DNA from: Planctomycetota bacterium
Lineage (GTDB): Bacteria; Planctomycetota; UBA1135; GCA-002686595
Direction: 5' to 3'
Assembly: GCA_022446815.1 (NCBI GenBank)
Contig: JAKVCD010000019.1
Coordinates: 2,012-66,011 of the forward strand
DNA length: 64,000 nucleotides
A model generated the notes under the pieces. That model made no database searches. It had not been told where the DNA came from and saw only the letters and a program-made list of their open reading frames with translations. Of this stretch, positions 2,832 through 25,304 are shown in pieces (positions within the stretch are counted from its first letter, which is position 1; each line of letters opens with the position of its first letter). The translations under genes and the position numbers were made by a program.

Positions 2832-5768
2832 CTACTTGGACGCTGCGAAGAGCACCCTCGAGAGCTCTTGCCCCTCGTCCGTGGGGTCGTAATCACGGAA
2901 GAACTCGGCCATGGTCGCCTTGGTCACCTTCAAGCTCTGGTCATGACGGTAGTAGGGGTTCCCCAACATAGGGACGAACTCTCTCGCGACCACCCTGAAC
3001 CGCGCGAGGATCTCTGGGGTCTCATAGGCCTCGGGGTGATCATGGAGCCACCCACCGAGCATCCTGATTTCGCTCGCGGCCTCGTAGTCCATATAGCCGA
3101 GGTCGAGATCCGCCTGCGGCTGGAAGGCCGCCCCGTCCTTAGCCTTGGGTAAGTGCTGCGCCGCCACCCTCTCAAACTGCGACTCCACAGCGCCGAGCTG
3201 CTCTAGTGCGACCTCTCGAATGAGCATGTCAGCCTCCTCAAGCTCCCCTCGCTCAAGGAGTACTCCTACATAGTCACGCTGCACCTCACAGACACAGCGC
3301 AGGCTGATCAGCGTTGAGTGATTCAATCGGCCCAGAGTGGCGCGCTTGCGCTCAAGAGTGCCGCGCGCCAACTCCAAGGCCTCTTGGTGCCGACCCATGC
3401 GGTACAGCAAGACTGCAAACCCCGTCTCCGCTTGGAGAGTGTTCAAGTTGTTCTCTGGGTAGGCCTCTCGCATACGCATGACAGCTCCGGAGTACATCTT
3501 GAACGAACGCTTTGCGAGCTGATCCTTTAGCTTTGGCTCTAACTCCCCATCCACAGTGAAGTAATACTCAAGGAAGGCCCACCCGATCCGCCACTCAGGG
3601 ATCAACGTGTTCACTCCATACTCACCCGGCTTGAGGTTGGTCATCCGCTCCCACCAAGCTAAGACCTCTCGCATCTCAGCGTTCGCTTTCTGGAAGTCGC
3701 CTGCACGCACCATCATCCTGGCCTTCTCAAGCTGCAGCTCCCTCGTCAACGGGTGATTCTCTCCCATCAAGCTGCTCGTACGCGCCAACTCGTGCTGGCT
3801 TGAGAAGAGCTCGAGCGCCTCGCTCCACTGCAGGTGGTGAACCAAGAAGAGGCCTCTCGCGAGCTTGCACCTCATCAAGCGTGGATCCGAGGCTGGGAGC
3901 GTCTCGCTCAAGCGCTCTGCTTGTTCCATCAGCCAATCCACAGGCTCAAGCCCAAACCTTCTCCTGAACTTAACGAGATCTCTCTCGAGGCCGCTCCGAA
4001 GCGCAGCGATTAGGAGGTCCGTGAACACGTTGTCTCGCCGTTCTCTCAGGTCCTTCAAGAACCCCTGAGCCTCCCGCCTGTCACGCGCGGGGGCGCTCAA
4101 ATCCTTAGACGCCTGCTGCAGCAGAGTGACTCGCTCTTCGTAGTTCGTCTGCCAACCCCAGAAGCCCCTCAGGGCCTTCAGGAACTCCCCCTTCTCAAGC
4201 TCGATGAGGCTCCGGTAGTAGACCGGGAACTCCCTCAGGTAGAGGTCTGTCATCTCGGGCTGACCGGTGTCTTCCAGGAGCTTCGACACCTCATCAAGCA
4301 AGACCTCCGCGTTCTCATGCAGGTAGTACTCGATGTACCCTTCGATCAAAATCTTATACCCCTGCACCCGCTGCTCCAAAGGAGCACCTGATCCCCGGCT
4401 CAGCTTCTCAAGTGATTGCCCTAGCTCATTTAACTGATAGAGGGGCTCCCCTGCAGGAGCTTCCAAGTCAAGCTCAATGACGCTGGCTTGAACCTCATAA
4501 TCTTGAAGCAGGCGCTCGAGTTGGAGTTCCTTATCCAGCGCCCGATTTTGAGCAGAGAGAGCGATCCCCAACCCGACGAGCAAGAGCGCGATCACCATCC
4601 CCACACCGACGCCTAGGAGCAGCTGAGGCCGGCGGCGGAGCCAACGCCAACTCTGCTGCGCGCGGGTCGGCGGCATCGCTTCGATAGATTCACCGGCGAG
4701 GAACGCGTCTAGATCAGCAGAGACAGCCTGCATGTCCTTGTACCTATGCGCAGGGCTCTTCTCCGTCATCTTCCTCACGATTGTCGCGAGGTCGAGAGGT
4801 ACGAGCGCTCGAACAGAGCGCGGGTCGGGGATGTCATCCCCTTCGACCTTCTTTCGCACGAGGTCGATAGAGTCTGCAAAGAAGGGACGCTGAAGAGTCA
4901 ACGTCTCATAGAGCGTGACGCCGAGGGAGTACATGTCGCTCTGAGCGTCGGTCTGCCCGCTGAACTGCTCTGGCGACATATACATGGGCGTCCCTAAGAG
5001 CGCACCGTCCTGTGAGATGTCGAGCTGATCGTCCATCTGACCGAGGCCGAAGTCGATCAGCCGCGCGCGCCCATCGCCACCGATCAAGATGTTCGCCGGC
5101 TTGATGTCGCGGTGATAGATCCCCTCCCTGTGGACCTCTGCCATCGCTTGGGAGATATCTAAGAACCACGCTGCCACCTTGCGATCGTGTTGCTGGTCGG
5201 GCTTACTGCCCCCCCCCTCCGCGAGCTCTTCTTGATTTTTGAGTAGCACGTCGAGAGGGCAAGAGCCCTCGATGTACTCAACGGCCAGATAAGGGATGTC
5301 CCGATAGATCCCCCTGGCAAAGACCGCGACGAGACCAGGGTGCCTGATCCCCCCCATGATCCGACCCTCGCGATCGAAGCGCTCGCGGGCCTGATCAGAG
5401 AGCAGCGCTAGGCTGAGCTGCAGGAACTTGATCGCGACCCGCCGGTCAAGCGAGCGCTGGCGCGCCTCCCACACGACGGAGGTGCTCCCTACACCAAGCT
5501 CCCTCAACAGCTCGAACTCGCCGTCGACCAGGACGCCAGCTGTGATCCGCTGATCTCTCTTCTCGAAGATCTGCGCGAGCCTGAGGTGCTCACGGATGCG
5601 CTCCTCAAGCTCCGATCGAACCTCCGGAGGATACAGAGTGAGGAATTCACCTACTGAGGTCTCATCCCCTTCTCGATACCTCTCAAACCAGTCGGCGTAT
5701 GCGGCGTCTACACGGGTCTTGAGCGGCATCGCCCGCTCATCACCAAGTCCTCTCTCTCCCTCACTCAT
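2832..5768 (-). CDS. Membrane-anchored Ser/Thr protein kinase with large C-terminal sensor region
   Basis: A 978-residue kinase. Residues about 20-75 resemble the short helical preamble common before planctomycete kinases. The kinase domain is about 85-360 and appears complete: glycine loop GVGSTS, ATP-site Lys in VAIKF (about residue 114), catalytic HRDIKPAN (about 219-226), DFG (about 239-241) and SPE in place of APE. One transmembrane helix lies at about 383-405. The remaining 570 residues are helical, TPR-like and without a clear catalytic motif, and probably act as an extracytoplasmic sensor or scaffold. A GTG directly precedes the ATG at 5768; I take the ATG. It follows an ECF sigma factor and a small membrane protein on the same strand, which suggests a signalling operon. 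Its substrate is unknown. Confidence 0.9.
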   Translation of the reverse strand: MSEGERGLGDERAMPLKTRVDAAYADWFERYREGDETSVGEFLTLYPPEVRSELEERIREHLRLAQIFEKRDQRITAGVLVDGEFELLRELGVGSTSVVWEARQRSLDRRVAIKFLQLSLALLSDQARERFDREGRIMGGIRHPGLVAVFARGIYRDIPYLAVEYIEGSCPLDVLLKNQEELAEGGGSKPDQQHDRKVAAWFLDISQAMAEVHREGIYHRDIKPANILIGGDGRARLIDFGLGQMDDQLDISQDGALLGTPMYMSPEQFSGQTDAQSDMYSLGVTLYETLTLQRPFFADSIDLVRKKVEGDDIPDPRSVRALVPLDLATIVRKMTEKSPAHRYKDMQAVSADLDAFLAGESIEAMPPTRAQQSWRWLRRRPQLLLGVGVGMVIALLLVGLGIALSAQNRALDKELQLERLLQDYEVQASVIELDLEAPAGEPLYQLNELGQSLEKLSRGSGAPLEQRVQGYKILIEGYIEYYLHENAEVLLDEVSKLLEDTGQPEMTDLYLREFPVYYRSLIELEKGEFLKALRGFWGWQTNYEERVTLLQQASKDLSAPARDRREAQGFLKDLRERRDNVFTDLLIAALRSGLERDLVKFRRRFGLEPVDWLMEQAERLSETLPASDPRLMRCKLARGLFLVHHLQWSEALELFSSQHELARTSSLMGENHPLTRELQLEKARMMVRAGDFQKANAEMREVLAWWERMTNLKPGEYGVNTLIPEWRIGWAFLEYYFTVDGELEPKLKDQLAKRSFKMYSGAVMRMREAYPENNLNTLQAETGFAVLLYRMGRHQEALELARGTLERKRATLGRLNHSTLISLRCVCEVQRDYVGVLLERGELEEADMLIREVALEQLGAVESQFERVAAQHLPKAKDGAAFQPQADLDLGYMDYEAASEIRMLGGWLHDHPEAYETPEILARFRVVAREFVPMLGNPYYRHDQSLKVTKATMAEFFRDYDPTDEGQELSRVLFAASK

Positions 5769-18297: not shown

Positions 18298-19002
18298 TCA
18301 GCCCACTCTGAGCTCAAGCTCCCACCCAGAGGCCGAGAGCTTGACCTCTGAGGAGAGGAGCTTGCGTGAGTCTGTCCGACGTGAGGGGCTCCAGCGGTCG
18401 GTCTTCTCCCGCACAGGGAGCCAGCCTGCCTCTAAGGAGCGATCGAAGAGGCGCTTGCAGACGTCATGTCCGCTCTCTCCATCAATGACGGGGATCTCTA
18501 GAGACTCCATGGAGCGGTGCCTCCCGCTTACGTCCGAGACGACGCCGTAGAACTCGAGCCTCCCAGCGCCGGGGGTCGGACTGGTGGGACGCAGGCTGAG
18601 CATGCCGAGCGGACGATCACAGAATGTCACGCTGGCTCCTGGCCCAGCGGGGAGGTCAACGCGAACGCTCGTGACATCTTCGATGAAGAGGTCACCTGTC
18701 TTATCAAGCGCTGTGGACTCAGTGACCCGCGCTCCATGCTCCTTCAGCCGCTTGGCCAAGAGCGTGGCGAGGGAGGCGCCCGTTGTCCCTGGCTTGAATT
18801 GTCCGATGAGGCTCGTCTCCACGAGCTCTTGCTCGACCCGATGAGTCACCGAAATCGAGACCCACGGGTGAGTGCGCTCCCCTACAACTCCATCCAGGCT
18901 GAGTTGACAGAGGGCTAGGCCGGACGCGCCCTCGAGCGCAGGCGTTGGCATGGCCCCCATGGCGAGGGAGCAGACGAGGGCGAGGGTGAGTGCGCGCTTC
19001 AT
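18298..19002 (-). CDS. Exported protein of unknown function
   Basis: A 234-residue protein with a clear signal peptide (MKRALTLALVCSLAMGAMPTPALEG). I recognise no family. The mature part mixes beta strands with a segment (residues about 70-100) that looks like the TTLAKxLKEHG helix of divisome or lipoprotein assembly proteins, but not strongly. The ATG at 19002 has a strong AGGAGG five bases upstream; the frame stays open further upstream through the tRNA gene, which is not a plausible start. It sits tail-to-tail with the sulfatase-fold gene, with only 6 bases between stops. Confidence 0.6.
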   Translation of the reverse strand: MKRALTLALVCSLAMGAMPTPALEGASGLALCQLSLDGVVGERTHPWVSISVTHRVEQELVETSLIGQFKPGTTGASLATLLAKRLKEHGARVTESTALDKTGDLFIEDVTSVRVDLPAGPGASVTFCDRPLGMLSLRPTSPTPGAGRLEFYGVVSDVSGRHRSMESLEIPVIDGESGHDVCKRLFDRSLEAGWLPVREKTDRWSPSRRTDSRKLLSSEVKLSASGWELELRVG

Positions 19003-19099
19003 GGAGACCTCCTGAGGGCTTGACGGGGGCTCTGACGAGCCAAGCCTAGACTTCTTCCACGAGTCTACAGAACCTCCACCCCACACCTCGAAGGGGTGA

Positions 19100-19174
19100 T
19101 GGTTACCCCGCCAGGACTCGAACCTGAAACGTCTGGACCAAAACCAGATGTGTTGCCAATTACACCACGGGGTA
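19100..19174 (-). tRNA. tRNA-Gln (anticodon TTG)
   Basis: Read on the minus strand, TACCCCG pairs with CGGGGTA as a 7-bp acceptor stem, followed by discriminator A and an encoded CCA. The D arm is short, GTGT...ACAC. The anticodon stem TCTGG/CCAGA encloses the loop TTTTGGT with anticodon TTG (Gln, codon CAA). The T arm carries TTCGAGT, and the variable loop is short. Length is 72 without CCA. It lies alone between cinA and an exported protein gene. Confidence 0.95.
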
Positions 19175-19244
19175 ACTGCGGCGCCTGGAGAACCCCGGCG
19201 CACGGGCGGAGAGCATAGCAACGCTAGCGGATGTGTCGAGGCCC

Positions 19245-20492
19245 TCAGCGCCCATCCCTGTAGGTACGCAACATGAGGTTGAGCATCGTGTTCGTCGCCC
19301 AAGCCTGAATATGGCCCCTGCCGCGCGATGAGAAGGTCCTCTGGTGCGTCCTGACGGCCCCATCCAGGCCCACCGCAAAGTGCACAGTCCCCACAGGTTT
19401 CTCTGGAGATCCGCCTCCTGGGCCCGCGATCCCGGTCACCGCGCCCACCAAGCGAGCCCCGCTTGAGCCGTGTAACCCTGTCGCCATCGCCTCCGCGACC
19501 TCATCTGAGACCGCGCCGTGGGCTTCGATGAGGTCTTCAGGCACCCCTAGCCGCGCGGCCTTAGCCTCGTTGGAGTAGGTCACCAGAGACTCCTTCAGGA
19601 CCGCGCTCACGCCGGGCACGGCGCAGAGCCGCTGAGAAATCTGCCCCCCTGTGCACGACTCTGCCACGGCTACGCTGCAGCCCTCCTCCAGGAGCTCTGC
19701 GACGAGGACGCTCGCGAGGTCGGCCTCGCTCTCGCTGAAGACCCACGGGGCCAGGAGCTCCCGCGCCTCCTCGACGCGCTCTTCAAGCCGCGCGAGGTCC
19801 GCTTCGCTCGAGCCCCGCGCTGTGAACTTCAGCTCCAAGACCCCACGTGAGGCGAGGACTCCAGAGACCGGATCCGCGTCGCGCGCCATCCACTCGCCCA
19901 CACGATCCGCTAGGTCGCTCTCGCTCACGCCGCAGAGGAAGAGCGTCCTGCGCTGGGGCGGTGCTGAGCGCTCCACTCGACTCAGGAGCTCTTCTCGCGA
20001 CACGCCTTGCATCTCACGGGGGGGCCCCGGTAAGCACGCGAGTCGCGCTCCTCCTGCCTCGACGAGGAAGCCCGGCGCGGTGCCGTGGGCATTGTCGAGG
20101 CGCAGCGCTCCGCTCGGTAAGAGCGCCTGGCGCCTGTTCGACTCAGGCATCGGCTCGCCACGGGTGCTCCAAAACTCTCGCAGCCCTGCCACAGTCTCTG
20201 CGTCCTCCTCGAGCTCGAGGTCACAGGCTGCCGCCGCCGCGTGGCGTGTGACGTCATCCAAGGTTGGACCGAGACCGCCCGTCGTGATGACGAGCTCATG
20301 CCCTGAGAGGAGGTCGCGGAGGGTCTCCGTGAGCTGCGCGAGGTCGTCACCGATGAGGCGCGCCTCTGACACTCTCCAGCCGCGTGAGGTGAGCTCTCGC
20401 GCAAGCCAGCCCAAGTTCCCTTCGGCCCTCTCCCCCGCGATGAGCTCATCACCGACTGCCACGAGCGCGGCGGCCCCCTCTCTCCCGGTCAT
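19245..20492 (-). CDS. cinA: CinA: nicotinamide-nucleotide amidase / competence-inducible protein
   Basis: A 415-residue two-domain CinA. Residues 1-170 form the molybdopterin-binding-like domain (GDELIAGE at 13-20, TTGGLGPTLDDVT at about 70-82) with the associated pyrophosphatase activity in many members. Residues about 255-415 form the PncC amidase domain with ESCTGG and the TGIAGPGGGSPEKPVG loop. Together they recycle the NMN formed by DNA ligase and other reactions. Its start overlaps the tatC stop by 4 bases (ATGA), so the genes are coupled. tRNA-Gln lies 70 bases past its stop. Confidence 0.95.
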   Translation of the reverse strand: MTGREGAAALVAVGDELIAGERAEGNLGWLARELTSRGWRVSEARLIGDDLAQLTETLRDLLSGHELVITTGGLGPTLDDVTRHAAAAACDLELEEDAETVAGLREFWSTRGEPMPESNRRQALLPSGALRLDNAHGTAPGFLVEAGGARLACLPGPPREMQGVSREELLSRVERSAPPQRRTLFLCGVSESDLADRVGEWMARDADPVSGVLASRGVLELKFTARGSSEADLARLEERVEEARELLAPWVFSESEADLASVLVAELLEEGCSVAVAESCTGGQISQRLCAVPGVSAVLKESLVTYSNEAKAARLGVPEDLIEAHGAVSDEVAEAMATGLHGSSGARLVGAVTGIAGPGGGSPEKPVGTVHFAVGLDGAVRTHQRTFSSRGRGHIQAWATNTMLNLMLRTYRDGR

Positions 20493-21379
20493 GTGGTGAG
20501 CTCAGTCGAGACGGCCTTGCGATGGGCGAGCCGCGCGAAGAGGTGCCCGACCTCATAAAGGACCGCCATGGGGATGGCCATCATGAGCTGGGTGAAGGGG
20601 TCGGGAGGCGTGAGGATGGCGGCCACGACCAGCGAACCGATCCAGAACATGCCCCGGTGCTTGGAGTAGCTCTTTGGGTCCACGAGCCCCACTCGCGAGA
20701 GCACCATCATCAAGAGGGGCAGCTGGAAGATGATCCCTAGAGCGAGGGTCAGGGTCGTCACGAAGGCGAGATAGTCCTCGACCTTCGGATCTGGACGCAT
20801 CTGCTCGAGCCCGTAGCCAAAGAGGAAGTAGCACCCGTACGGCAACATCATGAAGTAGCCGAACAGGACGCCCGTAAAGAAGAGCAGCGCGCTCATGGGG
20901 AAGATCCGATGGATCACCCGCCTCTCCTCTTTGTAGAGGCCCGCGGCGATGAACTGCCACAACTCCCAGAGGACGTAAGGGCCCGCGATGAAGAGCGCGA
21001 ACCAGAAGCAGACCTTCAGGTATGAGAAGAAGCTGCTAGACGCTCGGTCGTTGCGCGGCTGGAGGGGGATCGGATCTGCCAAGACCGTCTCACCGTTCAC
21101 CTCGCGGAAGTAAGCCTCCCTGCTGAGCTCAGGGTCCTCTGCGATGCGACGCTCATAGAGCTCGAAGAGGTCCTCATTGAGCCAAGTGACTGTGCGCTCG
21201 AGAGGATCAAGCACGATCTCCATCAAGGGCTGGTGGAAGGTCCAGCAGGCAAAGAAGGTCACGAAGAGCGCGACGGTCGAGCGCAGGAGCCGTCGGCGCA
21301 GCTCATCTAAGTGCGCACCCAAGCTCATGCGTGAGCTCTCTACGGGGTCTTCTTGAGGCTGTGTCTGGTCTACGCTCAT
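20489..21379 (-). CDS. tatC: TatC, core of the twin-arginine protein export channel
   Basis: A 296-residue membrane protein with about six transmembrane helices. The cytoplasmic N terminus has the hallmark HLDELRRRL motif (about 23-31). After the first helix comes an unusually long extracytoplasmic loop of about 60 residues containing an acidic stretch (RIAEDPELSREAYFREVNGE). The next loop reads NDRASSSFFSYLKVCFW, the usual substrate-receptor area. The C-terminal segment has the PDPFTQ motif. It recognises RR signal peptides together with TatB, then recruits TatA; tatA/tatB are not in this window. It is followed in coupling by cinA. Confidence 0.95.
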   Translation of the reverse strand: MSVDQTQPQEDPVESSRMSLGAHLDELRRRLLRSTVALFVTFFACWTFHQPLMEIVLDPLERTVTWLNEDLFELYERRIAEDPELSREAYFREVNGETVLADPIPLQPRNDRASSSFFSYLKVCFWFALFIAGPYVLWELWQFIAAGLYKEERRVIHRIFPMSALLFFTGVLFGYFMMLPYGCYFLFGYGLEQMRPDPKVEDYLAFVTTLTLALGIIFQLPLLMMVLSRVGLVDPKSYSKHRGMFWIGSLVVAAILTPPDPFTQLMMAIPMAVLYEVGHLFARLAHRKAVSTELTT

Positions 21380-21548: not shown

Positions 21549-22817
21549 TCAGTTGCGGAGGAAGTACTCGCGGATCTGCTTGATCGGGACGATCTGGACA
21601 CCCATGGCGACCGCGTTGCTGTAGGCGGGCTCTTCGCTGGGGCTCATAGGCTCCTCAAGGGGCTCACCGTCTTCGTCCGTGTAGATCTCAGAGCCGACGA
21701 TGAGGTAGTCAGTTGTCTTGTCGACGCTGTCCTGAATGTGGATGCCGACCTCAGAGAGGAGCAGGCGGAGCTCCTTCTCGTTCCAGGTCCCTGAGAAGCG
21801 ACCGACGAGGGCAGCGTTGCGCTGGGAGCTGGGGTCGTAGATCGGGTTGTAGATGATGTCGCCCGCCACGGGGGGGTCGAAGGGGTCAGCCTGATCGCTC
21901 AGGAGGACCTCAGCCATGCCTTCCTCGACGCGCGTGACAGAGCACCACGCCTTGACGCGGTCGTCTCCGGGAGTGCCGTCCACGATGCGGAAGCGGGTGC
22001 CACGCAGGAGGCGGTTCTTCTGGCCGATGTTAATCCACGCCAGGCCGAGCTCTTCGTTGACCGCGAGGACCTCGCCGTCGGCAGCCTCAGGCTCCTTCAG
22101 GAAGGCGAGCTTGCGACCCATCTCATCAAAGCGGGTCTGCATCGCCGCGCGCTCTTGAGAGTGCTGGCGGTTCTGGCTCTCCATGTCAGAGCGGGTCTTG
22201 CGCAGAGCTGACTCACGATCCGTCAGGCTAGTGCGCACGGAAGAGATCTGACCCTCGAGGTCGCTCTGGCGATCAGCCGCGGCCTGCTCAGCGTCTGAGA
22301 GCTGAGAGCGGAGGTCCGCGATGATGGCGTCCTTCTCGGCTCCGAGAGTGTTGATCTGGGAGGTCTTGGCCTGAACCTGAGCCTGGAGCTCGGTGATCCG
22401 AGTGTTGAGCTCTTGGATCTGGACCTTCTTCGCCCGGTACTCCGGAACGGCGCGTTGCGCGGCGCCCTGGAAATCGATCACGGCGGAGCCCATGTCGTCG
22501 AAGCCGTCCTTGAAGGCGGTGAGTGCGTCCGTAGCTGCCTCCACTGTGGACTCGCGTGTCGCGGTACCCTCTGGGTAGAAGCCGAGAACAGTAGAGATCT
22601 CGTAGATCTTGTTGATGTCGTTCTCGCGCTCAGCCTTGGCCTTGTCGCGCTCTGCCCTCATAGCATCACGCTCATTGCGCATCTCCTCGAGGTCTCCGCT
22701 CGATGCGATGGCGGCGACAAGCGCGACGATGAACGCGACGATGAGTGCGACGATCCAGATCAGAGAGTTGTTGGCGGCGCCGCGGCGGCTGAGATCGCTT
22801 TGTTGGAGCTTCTTCAT
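21549..22817 (-). CDS. Membrane-anchored coiled-coil protein with C-terminal BRCT-like domain
   Basis: A 422-residue protein. A short basic start precedes a transmembrane helix at 19-38. Residues 42-75 and 128-240 are long charged helices with heptad character (coiled coil). Residues 247-325 look like a small beta-barrel containing GLAWINIGQKN and RGTRFRI. Residues 335-420 match the BRCT pattern of NAD-dependent ligases: a G-x-F-S-G-T start, a central VDKTTDYLIVG, and a final A-x-x-x-G-V-x-I-V helix start. The central motif is the strongest evidence. The anchor and coils suggest dimerisation at the membrane with a soluble BRCT-like tip. I know of no named family with this domain order. It is transcribed alone upstream of tatC. 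Confidence 0.7.
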   Translation of the reverse strand: MKKLQQSDLSRRGAANNSLIWIVALIVAFIVALVAAIASSGDLEEMRNERDAMRAERDKAKAERENDINKIYEISTVLGFYPEGTATRESTVEAATDALTAFKDGFDDMGSAVIDFQGAAQRAVPEYRAKKVQIQELNTRITELQAQVQAKTSQINTLGAEKDAIIADLRSQLSDAEQAAADRQSDLEGQISSVRTSLTDRESALRKTRSDMESQNRQHSQERAAMQTRFDEMGRKLAFLKEPEAADGEVLAVNEELGLAWINIGQKNRLLRGTRFRIVDGTPGDDRVKAWCSVTRVEEGMAEVLLSDQADPFDPPVAGDIIYNPIYDPSSQRNAALVGRFSGTWNEKELRLLLSEVGIHIQDSVDKTTDYLIVGSEIYTDEDGEPLEEPMSPSEEPAYSNAVAMGVQIVPIKQIREYFLRN

Positions 22818-23172
22818 GAACTATGAGGTCTTCCGGGTGGCAGCCGGGCACGAGAATCGTGACCGCGCGAGCCGCTCGGGACAGTCTGGGGGATGGTGTG
22901 AGCCCGCTCGTCCTCTCCCTGGTGGTCCAGGAATGGGCGAGGGAGGCATGGTGATAACCGACAGAGAGGTATTCCGGCAAGTGTTTGACGCCTCCAGATC
23001 CCATGTTGATCACCTCGGAGGTGGTCTCTAGGGTGCTCTTGAAGTCCGCTTGAGGCCGCCGCTGGCGACCTCATCCCGGCCAGGAGGGGCTCCGAAGAAG
23101 CGTCAGACGGCCAAAAACCGCCCTAACGACCCCTATACCCGCCCTCAAGCCGCTAGTTTCACCCTTCAAGCG
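22818..23172. promoter_or_regulatory. Divergent intergenic region between BRCT-like gene and coaE
   Basis: A 355-base divergent region. Short reading frames on both strands lack ribosome sites and family features. Promoters for both sides are expected here, and the part nearest the minus-strand gene has a TTGCCG/TTATCA pair with 17-base spacing, which is a weak candidate only. No repeats or hairpins stand out. Confidence 0.3.
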
Positions 23173-23808
23173 ATGTCCACCCCCACCCACGAGAGCCAAC
23201 CACCCCTCATCCTAGGGGTCCTCGGAGGCATCGCCTCAGGGAAGTCTCGTGTGGCCCGAGTCTTAGCTGGGGCAGAGGGCGCCGTGATCGACGCAGATGA
23301 GCTGGCTCACGCCGTCTTGGCCTCACCCGAGGTCACTGAGCTCGTGGCTGAGGCGTTCGGCGGGGGCGCCCTCGGAGGAGACGGACGCCCTGATCGAGCG
23401 GCCCTCGCGGCGCTCGTCTTCGACGATCCCGAGGCGCGCGGTCGGCTGGAGGGGTGGATCCATCCGAGGGTTCGTGCGAAGATCCAAGCCGCCTTGGACG
23501 AGGCGAAGGCTCAGAACGTTGGGCCTGTGGTCTTGGACGTCCCCCTCCTCTTGGAGAACGACAGAGAGCACGGTCTCGTCGCACAGTGCGATCACCTGAT
23601 CTTCGTTGAGTCCGACCTCGAAGCCAGGGAAGAGCGCGCGGCCTCGTCGCGCAGCTGGACCCCGGGAGAGGTCGCGCGTCGAGAGCAATCTCAGCTCGCC
23701 CTGACGGAGAAGCGGGAGCGGGCAGACCACACGATCGTGAATCGAGGGACCCTCGAAGCGCTCGATCAAGCGGCCCAGCTCCTGCGAGACCAACTGCACA
23801 ACTCATAA
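23173..23808 (+). CDS. coaE: Dephospho-CoA kinase
   Basis: A 211-residue P-loop kinase, the normal CoaE length. The Walker A motif GGIASGKS lies at 18-25, the substrate segment DADELAHAVL follows at about 38-47, and the IHPRVR and DVPLLLE segments are typical. It phosphorylates dephospho-CoA in the last step of CoA synthesis. The ATG at 23173 was chosen because the frame upstream has no family similarity. It lacks a strong Shine-Dalgarno site. rho begins 17 bases downstream, and such a coaE-rho pair suggests co-transcription. Confidence 0.93.
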   Translation: MSTPTHESQPPLILGVLGGIASGKSRVARVLAGAEGAVIDADELAHAVLASPEVTELVAEAFGGGALGGDGRPDRAALAALVFDDPEARGRLEGWIHPRVRAKIQAALDEAKAQNVGPVVLDVPLLLENDREHGLVAQCDHLIFVESDLEAREERAASSRSWTPGEVARREQSQLALTEKRERADHTIVNRGTLEALDQAAQLLRDQLHNS

Positions 23809-23825: not shown

Positions 23826-25304
23826 ATGACCGCGCCGACCGCACAAGCCCCACGAAGCATGGCGACAGCCCACAAGAAGCGCTCCAAGAAGAAACGCTCG
23901 CGCAAGTTCAAGCGATCCGGCCGCGGAGTCGTCCACGACGAGTCCTTCGCGCTCGACTACTCCAAGCTGCCGCAAGACCTCAACGAGGAGGAGCTCGCAG
24001 AGCTCGAGGGCGAGCTGCCCAAACCGAAGAAGAGCGCGAAGCCGGTTGAACACTCTGTCCTCTTCGATCTCACCGTGGGAGACATGGTGGAGGCCGCCGA
24101 GGGTGAGAAGGTCGACGTCCACGATCTGCGCACCCGTAACCAGATCTACGTCGCGCTCACCACCGCGCGCCTGCGCGAGGGCCTATCCGTGATCACTGAA
24201 GGAGTGATCGACATCGTCCCTGAGGGGCACGCCTTCCTGCGCACCTCCTCGAGCGACTACATGCCCACGGCTGAGGACGTCTTCATCCCCCCCTCCCTCA
24301 TCGCGAGCGCCGCCCTCAAAGAGGGCATGGTCGTCCGCGGCGCACTGCGGGCACCACTAGAGGGCGAGACCGTCTTCGCCCTCAAGTCAGTTGAGCTCGT
24401 AGACGGCGGCGACCCCGAGGAGGCCCATGGGCGCACCCCCTTCAAGGAGCTCGTCCCTATCTACCCCGAGGAGCGCATCCTCCTAGAGGGTTCTGATGAC
24501 AACCCGCTCGAGATGCGCATCGTCGACCTCATCACCCCGGTCGGCAGGGGCCAGCGCGGCCTGATCGTCGCGCCTCCCAGAACAGGCAAGACGGTCCTCC
24601 TGCAGATGCTCGCGCGCTCCATCGTGCGCAACGCGCCTGATGCGCACCTCATCATCCTGCTCGTTGACGAGCGGCCCGAGGAGGTCACCGACTTCAAGCG
24701 CAGCGTCCCTGGTGAGCGCGTGGAAGTCGTCAGCTCGACCTTCGACGAGCCCGCCGCACGGCACATCCGCCTCGCGGACATGGTCATCAAGAAGGCCAAG
24801 TCGATGGTCGAGTCCGGCGATGACGTGATCATCCTCCTCGACTCCATCACGCGCCTCGCGCGCGCGTGCAACACCGAGGCACCGAGCAACGGCAAGCTCC
24901 TCTCCGGAGGCCTCGAGGCGACGGCCCTGCAGTTCCCCAAGCGCTTCTTCGGCGCAGCGCGGAAGCTCGAGGACGGCGGCTCTCTGACGATCCTCGGAAC
25001 GGCTCTCATCGAGACCGGCTCCAAGATGGACGAGGTGATCTTTGAGGAGTTCAAGGGGACGGGTAACGCTGAGATCGTGCTCGACCGCCGCCTCTCCGAC
25101 CGCCGGATCTACCCCGCGATCGACATCAACGCCTCTGGCACCCGCAAAGAGGACCTGCTCTTCGACGAAGAGGAGATGCGCCGCGTCTGGATGTTGCGCA
25201 AGGTCTTGAACGAGCTCGACCCTGTCGAGGCGATGGAGATGCTCATCCAGAAGATGAGCAAGACCTCCAGCAACGGCCAGTTCCTGATGTCCATCGGCTC
25301 TTAG
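23826..25304 (+). CDS. rho: Transcription termination factor Rho
   Basis: A 492-residue hexameric RNA helicase that ends transcription at rut sites. RNA-binding domain: about 80-200. Motor domain: Walker A APPRTGKT at 249-256, the DERPEEV segment, DSITRLARA, and the [21 protein letters not shown] and EFKGTGN segments of the RNA-translocating loops. The N-terminal 40 residues are very basic ([14 protein letters not shown]), a lineage-type extension, and a second ATG at codon 12 is also possible. It follows coaE by 17 bases and is followed in turn, after 4 bases, by a glycosyltransferase gene that may be read through. Confidence 0.96.

Follow-up and report, generated by a model that had tools for sequence, protein, structure and literature searches.

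A membrane-anchored coiled-coil protein with a C-terminal BRCT domain, present in most Planctomycetota and a candidate envelope scaffold

The gene described here lies in a window of 64,000 nucleotides from a Planctomycetota genome, where it is flanked by tatC and cinA on one side and by the divergent genes coaE and rho on the other (Table 1). Residues 1-12 of its product are basic and are followed by a single hydrophobic segment that extends, by hydropathy, over approximately residues 13-41. An earlier note on this DNA had rightly counted one transmembrane (TM) helix, but its extent, given there as residues 19-38, had to be revised. The coiled coil and the beta-barrel-like segment of the same note were both recovered, the former as a long stretch and the latter as a conserved beta domain. 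A motif at the start of the TM helix, RGAAxVSxxW (window 22750-22800), was found order-wide and resembles prepilin-like or TadE/PilX leaders; its consensus across the order keeps R, G, A and W. The coiled-coil stalk was poorly conserved, with a mean column identity of 0.29-0.34 in the order alignment. Comparison with an 87%-identical homologue (L001) gave a dN/dS of 0.16 for the whole gene, a low value from which we conclude that the open reading frame (ORF) is a real gene. By region, dN/dS against the same homologue was 0.20 for the stalk, 0.00 for the beta domain and 0.05 for the BRCT region, so that the constrained part of the protein is the head made of its last two domains. The identity of the protein family and its domain architecture are near certain.

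Table 1 The family gene, its parts and its conserved neighbours in the window
Feature	Position	Strand	Basis
Whole gene, TM helix + coiled coil + beta domain + BRCT, 422 aa	21549..22817	-	ORF call, ATG start
Basic N-terminal flank with motif RGAAxVSxxW, plus TM helix	22695..22817	-	Hydropathy, flank charges, order consensus
Coiled-coil stalk, residues 41-240	22098..22697	-	SMC-type profile matches, residues 43-231
Beta domain, residues 244-332	21822..22088	-	Conserved in alignment; weakly FlgT_C/TsaP-like
C-terminal BRCT domain (family evidence), residues 333-420, without a conserved phosphate pocket	21558..21821	-	Family profiles
tatC, next gene, conserved neighbour	20489..21379	-	PF00902 2.1e-65, synteny
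cinA, overlaps tatC, conserved neighbour	19245..20492	-	PF02464 4.5e-45, synteny
coaE, divergent conserved neighbour	23050..23808	+	PF01121 4.3e-36, synteny
rho, divergent conserved neighbour	23826..25304	+	PF00006 and PF07497, synteny

When scored alone against the Pfam BRCT model PF00533, the window protein reached 13.7 bits, under the cut-off of 21.3, and its BRCT domain would therefore be missed by automatic annotation; the sole above-cut-off BRCT match of the genome in the Pfam scan was a LigA-type ORF, a separate frame of 708 amino acids. Among 52 aligned relatives, 45 matched BRCT individually, with a best E value of 2.5e-10, and many of the second BRCT ORFs detected in a scan of the phylum scored above the PF00533 cut-off. 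The comparison with LigA that the earlier note had suggested was carried out with hhalign, in which 47 BRCT regions from the order set against 16 LigA BRCT domains gave 96.8%, while the neighbouring beta domain, used as a control, gave 0.3%. A search of the PDB with a profile of the head aligned the whole domain to LigA BRCT structures at E values of 1.4e-9 to 4.5e-8 (1l7b at 1.4e-9) and to the RFC1 BRCT at 2e-7. AlphaFold2 models made from alignments of only 1-2 sequences had pLDDT values of 42 and 60; the order of elements in this low-confidence model, a1-b2-b3-a2-b4-a3, fits a BRCT domain with b1 not formed, and a Foldseek search with the poor model returned no significant match. Both the poor models and the low score of the single protein would suit an unrelated alpha/beta domain that is merely BRCT-like, but this reading is made very improbable by the individual matches among the relatives, by the above-cut-off ORFs of the phylum scan and by an hhalign match that the control domain failed to give. 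On such family evidence, the C-terminal region (residues 335-420 in the earlier note, 333-420 by family profiles) is confirmed as a BRCT domain at the level of sequence.

Other BRCT matches were placed outside the family, namely a MurC false positive, BRCT-MerR-TPR proteins and DnaQ-BRCT proteins. Three proteins (L130:4684-6132:-, L131:4583-5869:- and L141:5747-7267:+) combine an N-terminal BRCT with a MerR-like helix-turn-helix and TPR repeats, their domains apart from the BRCT being read by eye. A further protein of 169 amino acids (L137:5547-6053:-) consists solely of a TM helix and a BRCT domain.

The family is far from being a local oddity and is present in most Planctomycetota. Of 61 relatives, 60 have a homologue. 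When 59 genomes of the phylum were scanned with PF00533, most showed a second BRCT ORF, mostly of 390-510 amino acids. The protein with TM helix, coiled coil, beta domain and BRCT was encoded in 34 of the 40 loci that were fetched, 11 of these carrying tandem pairs. With a profile of the two-domain head (E<1e-15), approximately 246 of 292 phylum genomes were matched, a figure counted by hand from the table, in which weaker matches look like LigA alone. A second profile, built from the divergent branch, matched 127 of 198 genomes (E 1e-22 to 1e-90), with a single copy in all but one; overall, copy number is usually one per genome and sometimes tandem. No recognisable copy was found in families f49, f83 and f74, whose genomes are 85-100% complete. 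Among named genomes, a scan gave a single close relative, an ALOHA Planctomycetota MAG, and a search of plasmids for the family gave no match. The earlier note had also asked whether homologues share the domain order and conserved neighbours; the order was found to be common to homologues phylum-wide, and the proposal thus withstood this test. A single ancient duplication as the origin of every tandem pair was not supported, as on the tree copies 1 and 2 require 6 changes, close to the result for shuffled labels. At one locus (L117) a tandem pair is followed by a third coiled-coil gene, an ORF from 7602(+) of 324 amino acids with a weak match.

The adjacency to tatC reported in the earlier note was confirmed, tatC being the gene that follows immediately on the minus strand. 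In the window's order, a divergent upstream coaE was found in 40/40 loci with room and rho in 38/40, and same-strand tatC and cinA lay downstream in 38/38 loci with room; some neighbour distances were distorted by stop-to-stop ORFs. In a broader sample of the phylum, at least one of coaE, tatC and polA was kept in 21 of 34 loci and same-strand tatC lay downstream in 16 of 34. Here polA stands for the gene labelled c10, which was recognised by eye and not with a profile. A rho-coaE-polA block still adjoins the family gene in a complete genome of a distant branch (n=1). Family members persist where the conserved neighbours are absent, and mre genes were not found among the conserved neighbours. 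Linkage to coaE-rho-tatC-cinA looks ancestral and by itself says little on function. Further along the window, a tRNA-Gln (ttg) at 19100-19174 on the minus strand lies within the opening part of ORF 18298-19302, so that the start listed for this ORF is wrong.

The residues of the phosphate site were then compared with those of LigA. In LigA, T13 (before the strand-1 Gly), K55 and K58 are invariant. The corresponding Thr position was hydrophobic in nearly all of 52 family members, with Thr in only one (1/52), and the two Lys positions were variable and not conserved. The Ser/Thr before the strand-1 Gly and the Lys at the start of helix 2, which mark BRCT domains binding phosphopeptides or 5'-phosphates, were thus not conserved in these members, and because of this pattern a phosphate pocket for DNA ends or peptides is absent by sequence. 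Judged in this way, the BRCT core is kept and the phosphate pocket is lost. Phosphate-independent protein contact is a known use of BRCT domains (PMC10386641) and would be possible for the family BRCT.

In the loop between b1 and a1 of the BRCT, which is the loop of the pocket, 23 of 30 sampled distant-branch members carried the motif D-x-[DNST]-x-[DN]-G, of the DxDxDG calcium type, against an expectation of 0.065 per shuffled protein. Because the 30 members sampled for the loop (L177-L181, L183, L184-L213) include close relatives, the 23 carriers do not represent 23 independent events. The loop was found in 0/103 members tested from the window's own branch. DxDxDG calcium-type loops are usual in extracytoplasmic proteins.

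The side of the membrane on which the head lies was assessed from the charges flanking the TM helix. In the window's order, the net charge was +2.5 for the N-terminal flank vs -1.0 after the helix, and the N-terminal flank was the more positive in 54 of 57 members, with 1 reversed. The same direction was seen in 27 other members of the phylum vs 9 with the reverse, and in 25 members of the distant branches vs 2. Pooling the three samples gave 106 members with N-in/C-out charges vs 12. Such charges are a statistical guide, less marked among the other phylum members, and the start codons used for them were picked by script. Since the N-terminal flank is the more positive, the positive-inside rule would place the head outside the cytoplasm.

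The beta domain showed similarity to FlgT_C (PF16538), with weak matches in 18 of 52 members (best 3.8e-4), and its profile matched the TsaP structure 3jc8 at an E value of 0.003. These, its nearest named relatives, are both periplasmic. The family beta domain differs from them in staying below the Pfam cut-off, in having no LysM and in being followed by a BRCT domain. FlgT_C itself scored above the Pfam cut-off in 2 of 59 genomes, in matches not tied to this protein. A paralogue in the same genome (L146:829-1731:+, contig 40) has a TM helix, a coiled coil and a beta domain of the same kind without BRCT. Flank charges, the calcium-type loop and the likeness to periplasmic FlgT_C/TsaP, none of which is proof alone, together make it quite likely that the head is extracytoplasmic. 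To our knowledge, BRCT domains are nuclear or cytoplasmic, and a periplasmic one is unexpected a priori.

We propose, with a probability of about 0.55, that the protein is a stalk anchored in the inner membrane which carries its two-domain head in the periplasm and serves as a scaffold or tether of the envelope. The short basic N-terminus would stay in the cytoplasm, the single helix would cross the inner membrane and the coiled coil would form a periplasmic stalk, its probable dimeric state being inferred. At the tip of the stalk, the beta domain and the BRCT would make up the head, whose most likely ligand is a protein or wall partner in the envelope, and the protein would act as a constitutive scaffold or tether. 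The tether role, taken by itself, is tentative and somewhat short of even odds. Tandem copies suggest heterodimers in some lineages. Whether the family is a core ancestral envelope component of the phylum, in which an exported BRCT would serve envelope architecture and not the upkeep of the genome, with its pocket lost and in some branches exchanged for a calcium-type loop, is about an even bet. The family may resemble MreC-type envelope proteins in its layout of TM helix, coiled coil and periplasmic beta domain; it differs in showing no MreC profile among its Pfam matches and in having a BRCT tip.

The earlier note had instead proposed recruitment of DNA or phosphoproteins to the envelope, and a cytoplasmic head could likewise serve as a membrane anchor for DNA or for a replication/repair protein. 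Such an anchor would agree with the membership of other bacterial BRCT domains in DNA enzymes, with LigA and RFC1 as the best matches among solved structures, and with polA, coaE and rho lying divergently beside the gene in several broader-sample loci and in one complete genome. That neighbourhood may, however, be plain ancestral gene order, and the anchor is at odds with the lost Ser/Thr and Lys of the phosphate site, with the pooled flank charges and with a calcium-type loop at the same place in distant members, so that we consider it unlikely. The recruitment proposal is not supported: the phosphate-site residues are lost, and the flank charges favour a head outside the cytoplasm, where neither the chromosome nor cytoplasmic phosphoproteins are present.

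A further reading, somewhat less likely again, makes the protein an accessory of the Tat translocase, occupying the position that tatA/tatB have ahead of tatC in other bacteria. Like TatA and TatB (PF02416), family members have one N-terminal TM helix and are encoded immediately before tatC; a tandem pair with tatC behind it would look like tatA-tatB-tatC, the same-strand tatC downstream is the rule in the order and frequent in the broader sample, and the only TatA/B/E match of the genome lies elsewhere, on contig 41. The window protein itself, on the other hand, gave no PF02416 match up to E=1, which led us to reject membership in TatA/B/E (TatB); its flank charges are opposite to those of TatA, and it has a large coiled coil and two C-terminal domains. 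Members also persist without a nearby tatC, and other bacteria are known to manage with TatA-TatC pairs.

Compared with the LigA BRCT (PF00533), the family shares the conserved Gly positions and the hydrophobic core and finds its best PDB matches there, but the Thr and the two Lys of that phosphate site are not conserved in it, and the window's family has an insert before helix 2. Its BRCT is joined to a TM helix and coiled coil instead of a ligase, and no ligase catalytic domain was matched in the window protein by Pfam. In most bacteria, BRCT is found only in DNA ligase and a polymerase III subunit according to a review (PMC10386641), and our literature search found no account of this protein, nor of a BRCT in membrane proteins of Planctomycetota, in line with the earlier note, which knew of no described system with this order. 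We therefore regard the family as a known domain in a new setting: the BRCT is an old module that ordinarily serves DNA repair within the cell, and what is new is its setting, phylum-wide. Planctomycetota have unusual envelopes in which several standard wall and division genes are dispensable, and names are lacking for many of their conserved and essential genes (PMC10632474). With its conservation across most of the phylum and a familiar domain in an unaccustomed place, this protein offers a concrete target. The large set of Ser/Thr kinases remarked on in the earlier note is real, although nothing ties it to this protein; 13 kinases scored above the Pfam cut-off in the 3.2-Mb genome, one of them in the window at approximately 4719-5516 on the minus strand.
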